In this document: positions 48,730 to 51,182 of the stretch, piece after piece | Position numbering within the stretch: position 1 is the stretch's first letter | Layout of the letters: each line of letters starts with the position of its first letter | Assembly (NCBI RefSeq): GCF_024494645.1 | Contig: NZ_JANHDJ010000002.1 | Coordinates: forward strand, 62,001-126,000 | From: Halohasta litorea | Lineage (GTDB): Archaea; Halobacteriota; Halobacteria; Halobacteriales; Haloferacaceae | Length of the DNA stretch: 64,000 bases | Direction of reading: 5' to 3' | Program-made: the position numbers and the translations under genes | The notes under the pieces: generated by a model | The model's input: only the letters and a program-made list of their open reading frames with translations | Told to the model about the DNA's origin: nothing | The model's database searches: none

Positions 48730-50964
48730 TCACATATTCACGTCTTCGATCTTTTCGTTGACGACGACGTGGCCCAGCCCGGTCAGCACGGCCCCGTTGT
48801 CGCTCATCCGGACGAGCCCGACCTGGCCCAGCGACGACAGCAGCTCCTGGAGCTCGTCGGCGGGTTTGTCGATGATCATCGAGATATCGAACTCGTCGCC
48901 CGCCGAATACAGCGCGACCAGCACCTCCTTGTAGGCCTCGGTGAGCGTCAGTCCCTCGATTTTCCGTTTCCGTTCCCGGTAGCCCCGCCGGACGAACCGC
49001 TGGAAGAGCTTGTGCTTTCGTTCGTCCCGCACCGCGATCGTCGTCTTGATCGCGACCCCCGACTCATCGAGATGCCGCACCGAGAGGCTGCGGAACCGTT
49101 GTTCCTCGAAGGTCTGTTTCTCCAGTTCGAAGTAGATGATGTCCGACAGCTGGATCGTGAACGCCCCCTCGTTCGCCTCGTCTTCGTCATCGACCGTGAT
49201 CGATACTGATCGATCGTCGACTGACAGCGTGCCGCCAGCGGCCGCGGTATTGAGCACACGACCACCCCGCCGTGCGGGATGGGTGACGACGATCCGACAG
49301 GCCGAGAGGATCTGCTTGAAAACCGCGTTCACAAAGCCGCGCTGTCTGTTGCCGCTCAGCTCGACGATCGCCAGCCGCTGGCGGTCGCCCTCGTCGTAGG
49401 CGAGCGTCACCGCCGACTCGAAGGCGTCTTCGAGCTGTGACGGCAGGTGGTCCAGCGACTGGTCGACGACCGCCGAGAGCTCGATACGGGTGTGCTCGGG
49501 CGTCATCGAGTCATCGCTCCGGACGAACAACAGCTCCTGGGGGCCGAGAAACACGCGCGCACTCGTCGGCTGGCCGTCGGCGAACGCCGAACAGGCGACC
49601 GTGGTCTCGACGGTCACTACGGGTGAGCCGCTGAGTTGGTCCCGCGGGTCGAACACGGAGGCATCGTCGATTGTCGGGGTCGACTCGCTGGCCGTCTCGC
49701 CGTTTCGACTGCCCTCACCGCCGCCGGTCGTGTTTTTTGTCGGCGACTGCTCGCCTGCGGACGGCGGCGCTCCGGACTGCTCTCTCGGTGGCCTCGGAGA
49801 TTGGGACTGCTCGCTCGCTCCCGACGCTGACTCGGCCGAAGCCGACCCTGATTGACCGCCCGACGCCGATGGCGACTGTTGACTCACCGAGCCCTCTGTC
49901 GTGTCGCTCGGCGATGGATCAGCGTGACCGGCGGCTGGCGACTGCTGTGATGCCGTCTCAGCTCGGGAGATCTCCGCCCGGCGCTCGGCGTCTCGTCCGT
50001 TCACCCACCGCCCGAGCTGTACTGCGGCGTTCGTCTCGTCGACGAGCTCGCTTTCGGGATCGAGATACGAGCGCGTCCCGAGATCGGCGGCATCCAGGAC
50101 GTCCTCGACTGAGCTGCTCATCGGTCGGGGGTTGCGGACCCTTTCGGGCTTGCTCGATCGACTGTGGGCGCGAGCCTGCCGCCACTCGGCGTCGTAGGTT
50201 TGGGGATCGAACGGCTCCCGGTCGAACGGTTTGGGGTTCGCCAACAGCGTGTAGTCCTCACCGGGGTCGGCTTCCGAGCCGCCGAACAGCGCCGCGAGCT
50301 GCTGGCGAGCGTCGCTGCCCATCCGTTGACCCATCGCCCGTGTGTGGTCGTCTTCCCCAAGCAGACTCCCGACCCGCTGTGGCGAAAACCCTGCGTCGGC
50401 GAAGAACATGGCTGCTGTCGCCCTGAGGCTCCGAAAGTCGATGGCCTCGTCGTCGAGCCCCTCGGCGTGGGAGGCGCTCCGTTCGACCAGCCGTCCCATC
50501 GCCTCCGCCGACAGTGTGAGGTACTCTTCGGCTTCGCAGAGCCGCGCGAGGATCGCCGTCAGCCGCTCCGACCACGCGAAGGGGATCGTCCGGCCCGCGC
50601 TGGGCGGCGACCACATCGACTCGGTGAGGATCTCCCGAAGGGTGCGACCGTCGCCAGCCCGCTGGGCGTGGCGGGCGGTCTCCCAACACTGCTGGCAGGC
50701 ACAGGGGTCCCGCTCGGGGATCGTCAGCTCGCCGCGGCCCCAGTCGATCCACTCCTCGTGGAGATGCTGGATCTCGCCCGGACGGAGTCCGAGCCGACCG
50801 CCGAGCATGAGCACGGAGCTGGCTCGAAGCCGTCGCTGTCGGTCATCGAACGACAACCCACCCAGATACAGGCTGTAGAATGCCGACGGCTCAAGCGCCT
50901 TCGATGGCGGTATCGACGCCAGCAACTGTGCTCCTGTTGGGCCCGACCGTGTAGGCTCTCCCAT
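48730..50964 (-). CDS. Fusion: inactive-looking tyrosine recombinase domain plus CheF-like domain
   Basis: A 744-residue protein in three parts. Residues 20-230 resemble haloarchaeal XerC/D integrases (LGGRLGLRPGEIQHLHEEW with R61; AGRTIPF; FRSLRATAAMFFADAGF near 177-193; a DPCACQQC Cys cluster). The catalytic H of HxLR is R178 and no nucleophilic Tyr appears after LLGEDDHTRAMGQ, so strand transfer is unlikely. Residues 285-430 are a low-complexity Ser/Gln/Glu linker. Residues 440-744 resemble the archaellum chemotaxis adaptor CheF (RIVVTHPARRGGRVLN; terminal HTH-like TEAYKEVLVALYSAGDEFDI). No che or arl genes are near. Both assignments are by pattern; the fusion is inference from one continuous frame. 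Confidence 0.7.
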   Translation of the reverse strand: MGEPTRSGPTGAQLLASIPPSKALEPSAFYSLYLGGLSFDDRQRRLRASSVLMLGGRLGLRPGEIQHLHEEWIDWGRGELTIPERDPCACQQCWETARHAQRAGDGRTLREILTESMWSPPSAGRTIPFAWSERLTAILARLCEAEEYLTLSAEAMGRLVERSASHAEGLDDEAIDFRSLRATAAMFFADAGFSPQRVGSLLGEDDHTRAMGQRMGSDARQQLAALFGGSEADPGEDYTLLANPKPFDREPFDPQTYDAEWRQARAHSRSSKPERVRNPRPMSSSVEDVLDAADLGTRSYLDPESELVDETNAAVQLGRWVNGRDAERRAEISRAETASQQSPAAGHADPSPSDTTEGSVSQQSPSASGGQSGSASAESASGASEQSQSPRPPREQSGAPPSAGEQSPTKNTTGGGEGSRNGETASESTPTIDDASVFDPRDQLSGSPVVTVETTVACSAFADGQPTSARVFLGPQELLFVRSDDSMTPEHTRIELSAVVDQSLDHLPSQLEDAFESAVTLAYDEGDRQRLAIVELSGNRQRGFVNAVFKQILSACRIVVTHPARRGGRVLNTAAAGGTLSVDDRSVSITVDDEDEANEGAFTIQLSDIIYFELEKQTFEEQRFRSLSVRHLDESGVAIKTTIAVRDERKHKLFQRFVRRGYRERKRKIEGLTLTEAYKEVLVALYSAGDEFDISMIIDKPADELQELLSSLGQVGLVRMSDNGAVLTGLGHVVVNEKIEDVNM

Positions 50965-51182
50965 ACGTGAAAACCGTATTACAGAATAACAGAATTATTA
51001 TTAATAAATTACGGTCGAATTACACTATATTCCCAGTTGGGTCGACGCAGTCACGAACCCAGGCCAGCGGATACGACACAGCAGCACGCCCTCGGCGTTC
51101 CGTAGCAATATCCCACTGCGGCTCCCGATAGCAGTCGCTGTGCCTCGATGCGGCGTCGATAAAAGATCAGTTTCGGTGAGAC
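50965..51182 (-). promoter_or_regulatory. AT-rich promoter region of recombinase-CheF gene
   Basis: The gap has an AT-rich core (about 50985-51015) in which the minus strand reads TTTATTAATAATAATT about 25-45 bases before ATG 50964, a TATA candidate. The repeated ACAGAAT motif in the same stretch could be a protein site. No gene is seen. Confidence 0.4.

Follow-up and report, generated by a model that had tools for sequence, protein, structure and literature searches.

On the minus strand of the window, the whole 64,000-nucleotide stretch of Halohasta litorea DNA analysed here, a single uninterrupted ORF of 744 aa occupied positions 48730-50964. A preliminary description of this DNA had read the locus as one continuous frame joining an inactive tyrosine recombinase to a CheF-like adaptor, and the ORF had exactly these limits. 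The features of the locus were as follows.

48730..50964, minus strand: fused integrase-CheF gene, 744 aa, continuous ORF; the same fusion occurs in 14 other genomes
50275..50901, minus strand: residues 22-230, degenerate tyrosine-recombinase catalytic domain (phrog_216, AlphaFold2 with Foldseek, residue table)
49960..50274, minus strand: residues 231-335, linker carrying EPFDP and NPRP as conserved motifs (family profile matches and sequences)
49654..49959, minus strand: residues 336-437, low-complexity linker rich in Ser/Ala/Gly/Pro/Gln (composition)
48976..49572, minus strand: residues 465-663, CheF-arch domain consisting of two PH-like domains (PF04283, E 2.2e-30; match of the model to 7ovp)
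48730..48975, minus strand: residues 664-744 and stop, CheF C-terminal domain ending in EDVNM, which in solved CheF serves dimerisation and CheY-P binding (profile match to 7ovp and 7od9; 10/10 subtype-invariant residues)
50993..51008, minus strand: TATA-like element TTTATTAATAATAATT, which may act as a promoter, about 29-44 nt before the ATG; the same element lies upstream of the fused gene in G001 (Halohasta salina)

CheF (DUF439, PF04283) is the archaeal adaptor between CheY-P and ArlCDE (PMC2666748, PMC9126983). CheY-P binds its C-terminal domain, where the terminal carboxylate touches the CheY active site, and its PH domains probably bind ArlCDE (PMC9126983). The preliminary assignment of the C-terminal half to CheF was borne out by profile and by structure prediction. 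Residues 465-663 matched CheF-arch with 106.5 bits against a cut-off of 25, and this was the sole Pfam domain found. The AlphaFold2 model of residues 438-744, for which aligned relatives were supplied, had a pLDDT of 90.7, its top Foldseek match was the solved CheF 7ovp (E 1e-12), and it contained the two PH-like domains and the C-terminal domain of the CheF fold. The profile of this half matched both 7ovp and 7od9, the latter being the C-terminal domain of CheF from its complex with CheY.

As a C-terminal signature, we used the residues at least 90% conserved in one haloarchaeal CheF subtype (10 residues). The window protein had all ten, and 8 of 11 fused proteins had at least eight, with erosion in G026, G138, and G280. 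The EDVNM chain end stood at the same position as the end of the subtype and left the C-terminus free, so that the predicted CheY-P-binding C-terminal region was accompanied by a free C-terminus. The HTH-like C-terminus mentioned earlier held as a fold, the profile of the domain resembling MarR-type winged helices, but not as an added module. A DNA-binding HTH domain appended to the C-terminus was rejected, as this region is the C-terminal domain of CheF itself. Fold and sequence both make the window protein a CheF paralogue. The genome carries two further CheF genes, which makes the fused gene its third paralogue, and the fused CheF half shared about 23-39% identity per subdomain with the genome's own CheF. 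N-terminal additions are compatible with CheF function because GFP-CheF complements in Haloferax volcanii, GFP being tolerated at the N-terminus of CheF and not at its C-terminus (PMC9126983). By analogy, the fused topology, with an N-terminal addition and a free C-terminus, would be the compatible one, and the CheF half appears usable.

Residues 45-203 matched the viral integrase profile phrog_216 in a search of PHROGs (E 8.9e-7). The AlphaFold2 model of residues 1-335, built with an alignment of relatives as input, had a pLDDT of 78.5, and the Foldseek matches listed for it were tyrosine recombinases, with a best E of 5e-4. A single-sequence search of the PDB with the window protein gave no match, whereas the profile searches did. 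The fold, the profile similarity, and a tree shared with active relatives agree on recombinase descent of the catalytic domain. The N-terminal half is a tyrosine recombinase by descent, not by function.

We surveyed relatives of the fused gene. A single-sequence scan of named genomes gave no match, and an alignment-based scan gave two records. In a survey of 391 genomes of the class with a profile of the integrase half of the family, 11 genomes scored above 186 bits and everything else below 126 bits. A second family was also involved, in which a search of 146 genomes added four fused members. The family thus comprised 15 haloarchaeal genomes from 7 genera and 2 families, including Halohasta salina GSL13 (G001) from the same genus as the window genome. 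All 11 members from the class survey exceeded the curated PF04283 cut-off, and the four later members scored 241-374 bits with the CheF profile of the family.

The fusion was intact in 13 genomes and split in two, both by frameshift. In G003, a congener with a single-contig genome (L007:1450-3581), the frameshift lay just before the conserved RNPRP motif and left two overlapping ORFs; in the MAG G410 (L130:500-2597), it lay inside the integrase half. These different positions could reflect decay, phase variation, or sequencing error. The preliminary description had named two separate genes, joined here by a sequencing error, as the case against its reading. The two overlapping ORFs in the congener speak for such an artefact of sequencing or assembly. 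The split in G003 is, however, a derived state, because the shifted frame still reads through RNPRP, and both split cases look like derived states. With intact fusions in 13 genomes, independent of one another, a sequencing-error join of separate genes was excluded, and an artefact of this kind has practically no chance of being correct.

The active site was compared in an alignment of the fused proteins with 30 free-standing relatives. In the window protein, R61 in GLRPGE, earlier proposed as the integrase Arg, corresponds to canonical Arg I, and R181 is Arg II. R178 stands at the position of the HxxR His and M211 at that of the nucleophilic Tyr, as the preliminary description had seen for the His and for the missing Tyr; the catalytic Lys (replaced by P121) and the Trp/His (replaced by E204) were additional losses. 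The free-standing relatives kept Arg I, Lys, Arg II, Trp or His, and Tyr in 30/30 cases and the HxxR His in 28/30. Of the 15 fused proteins, all had lost the Lys and the Trp/His, 14 the HxxR His, and 12 the Tyr; Arg II was also gone in G026, G294, and G155. Nine non-catalytic residues (R57, H67, W72, C88, C90, C93, W118, R125, and R134) were kept in all of the first 11 fused proteins. Judging from these residues, the fused integrase half has lost its chemistry and kept its scaffold, because the catalytic residues are gone while the nine neighbouring structural residues are kept 11/11. The proposed loss of catalysis with domestication is thereby supported by a family of 15 members.

The window integrase domain retained Cys88, Cys90, and Cys93. 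H67, C88, C90, and C93 (within 50275-50901) were invariant in both fused and free-standing integrases, and form a candidate metal site of this integrase group.

In a maximum-likelihood tree, the fused integrase halves formed one clade with support of 98/99, which showed that they have a single origin. The nearest active relatives by profile score were proteins of 479-531 aa, with 229-246 bits against at most 142 for the short ones. These long integrases share post-catalytic motifs with the fused proteins, namely EPFDP and NPRP of the linker at residues 231-335, and end in a hydrophobic segment; positions 257-268 of the 270-position family profile were reached only by fused and long integrases. 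Since these integrases with their hydrophobic tail are the closest active proteins, the fusion resembles a tail swap, and we infer that the ancestor was such an integrase, whose tail was replaced by a copy of CheF. Long integrases with an apparently intact active site were located at L120:8369-9814, L121:7700-9145, L122:8024-9463, L123:8838-10277, and L074:1069-2664. Their C-terminal segment had a mean hydropathy of 1.96-2.82 over 19 residues, and the integrases are possibly membrane-anchored. In the L120 case, genes for a resolvase and a helicase-nuclease lay nearby.

Within the CheF tree, the fused proteins were placed on the side of one CheF subtype, which ends in EDVN or similar, and their CheF halves represent an additional paralogue of that subtype. 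The sole non-fused sequence among the fused CheF halves was a CheF-only gene adjoining the fused gene of G138 (L085:10221-11183). It looked like a partial duplicate lacking the integrase half, a placement that is uncertain with its long branches.

Pairwise dN/dS (Nei-Gojobori) in four pairs of intact genes lay between 0.20 and 0.52 in the integrase half and between 0.15 and 0.31 in the CheF half, below 1 on both. The low-complexity linker at residues 336-437 was poorly conserved, with a pN/pS of 0.86 against G001. These values bear on the explanation that a chance fusion is drifting to a pseudogene. The frameshifts in G003 and the MAG G410, the fast evolution, and the patchy distribution would all suit a decaying relic, but dN/dS of 0.15-0.52 in the four pairs and long open frames in 13 genomes of two families argue against one, and we regard decay as unlikely.

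In published surveys, CheF genes lay almost exclusively in che regions, the exceptions being two H. marismortui paralogues whose role is unknown (PMC2666748). The fused gene was outside che and arl loci in the neighbourhoods examined and thus lacked the chemotaxis surroundings of a typical CheF gene. Its neighbours in the window were RecJ-like, ZIP, and NFACT genes. Synteny around fused genes was conserved within genera only, and a conserved operon context was rejected on this ground. One of the other CheF genes of the window genome stood beside genes that looked by sequence like cheA, cheB, cheR, and a HEAT-repeat gene. Every one of the 11 genomes checked had genes of the archaellin family and carried one or more other CheF genes. 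Because 234 of the 391 class genomes have CheF anyway, this co-occurrence is weak; when five genera were counted as independent, the value for co-occurrence with motility genes was about 0.08. The association is suggestive, and weak after allowing for shared ancestry. The earlier idea of a role in motility stays plausible, given the intact CheF half and the co-occurring archaellins and CheF genes, but no proximity to che/arl genes was found in these neighbourhoods. Usually one or two CheF paralogues are discussed per haloarchaeon. In the class survey, some haloarchaea had up to seven CheF-like matches (for example G089, G245, and G138).

The preliminary description had further proposed that the DNA-binding fold was retained while catalysis was lost. 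The fold and the catalytic loss stood; DNA binding by the domain is putative. Active tyrosine recombinases usually, though not universally, have a separate N-terminal core-binding domain. None was found in the window protein, where Arg I comes as early as residue 61 and the alignment to phrog_216 (301 positions) begins at profile position 73; the short active relatives likewise lack this domain. The mean net charge of the integrase domain was -10 in the fused proteins, compared with -1 for the short active relatives and -5 for those with a tail, so that the fused domains are on average more acidic than their active relatives. Neither the charge nor the domain content decides for or against the putative DNA binding of the window protein.

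Our leading interpretation, to which we give a probability of about 0.45, is that the window gene specifies a third CheF paralogue to which a domesticated, catalytically dead integrase is permanently attached, and that the product serves as an adaptor responsive to CheY-P, with its output redirected by the integrase domain. The CheF C-terminal domain would dimerise and bind CheY-P as in ordinary CheF, and the PH-like domains may have kept their docking on ArlCDE. The integrase-derived domain would be a binding module for a DNA or nucleoprotein partner, and would therefore deliver the taxis signal to, or tether the motor to, a target beyond the motor switch alone. This interpretation draws on the fold and profile of both halves and on a family of 15 members in one clade (98/99), with catalytic losses in 12-15 of 15 and the nine structural residues in 11/11. 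It also draws on the C-terminal signature, complete (10/10) in the window protein and kept to 8/10 or better in 8 of 11 members, on dN/dS of 0.20-0.52 and 0.15-0.31 for the two halves, and on the archaellins and additional CheF in 11/11 genomes checked. Against it stand the missing core-binding domain and the acidity of the fused domains (-10 vs -1 and -5), the position outside che/arl loci, the erosion of CheF C-terminal residues in G026, G138, and G280, and the frameshifts in two members. A more specific version, in which the chemotaxis pathway directly controls the domesticated integrase domain on the chromosome through a CheY-P-gated, DNA-bound protein, is doubtful; if true, tactic signals would reach gene expression or chromosome positioning besides the archaellum motor.

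The protein could instead be an auxiliary CheF adaptor only, in which the integrase-derived domain stays off DNA and forms a cap for protein interaction or oligomerisation, tuning CheF where it acts on the archaellum switch. An acidic domain without a core-binding domain and a complete CheF half would fit such a cap, as would the tolerance of CheF for N-terminal fusions (PMC9126983). The invariance of Arg 57, 125, and 134 and of the whole recombinase scaffold is more than a cap seems to need, and we hold this account as possible at odds short of even. Descent from mobile-element integrases also raises the idea of a competitor, a dead integrase that would block the attachment sites of related active integrases while CheF adds only dimerisation or signal input. 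Fused genes and long active integrases occurred, however, in different genomes of the survey, and CheF would be a costly dimeriser, yet the CheY-P-binding signature is kept; we consider a competitor very improbable.

CheF has been characterised as an adaptor dedicated to coupling CheY-P to the archaellum switch. A conserved family of CheF proteins bearing a dead mobile-element integrase would represent domestication in archaea for which the parent can be traced, and would allow a direct test, in culturable Halohasta, of whether taxis signalling connects to the binding of DNA or nucleoprotein. The fused family is also relevant to the extra CheF paralogues of haloarchaea, which are unexplained, and hints that movement signalling may be tied, in a way not suspected before, to a domesticated protein from a mobile element. 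No description of an integrase-CheF fusion was found in the open-access collection searched, which omits most subscription papers.

Compared with known systems, the fused protein shares with ordinary CheF the two PH-like domains, the predicted CheY-P-binding C-terminal domain, and the C-terminal end of one haloarchaeal subtype. It differs in its extra N-terminal recombinase domain (about 230 aa) and linker, in its divergence, and in its place outside che loci. With the haloarchaeal integrases of the phrog_216 type (short ones of about 230 aa, long ones of 479-531 aa), it shares the fold, the Cys cluster, and the conserved Arg residues, and with the long ones also the linker motifs; these relatives keep the catalytic residues that the fused proteins have lost, and the long ones carry a hydrophobic tail where the fused proteins carry CheF. 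Domesticated tyrosine-recombinase domains are known from eukaryotes in ALOG proteins (PMC3537659) and Crypton-derived genes (PMC3212892). There, too, the host has put a recombinase-derived domain to new use in binding or regulation, but in another domain of life and another lineage, and without a chemotaxis domain.
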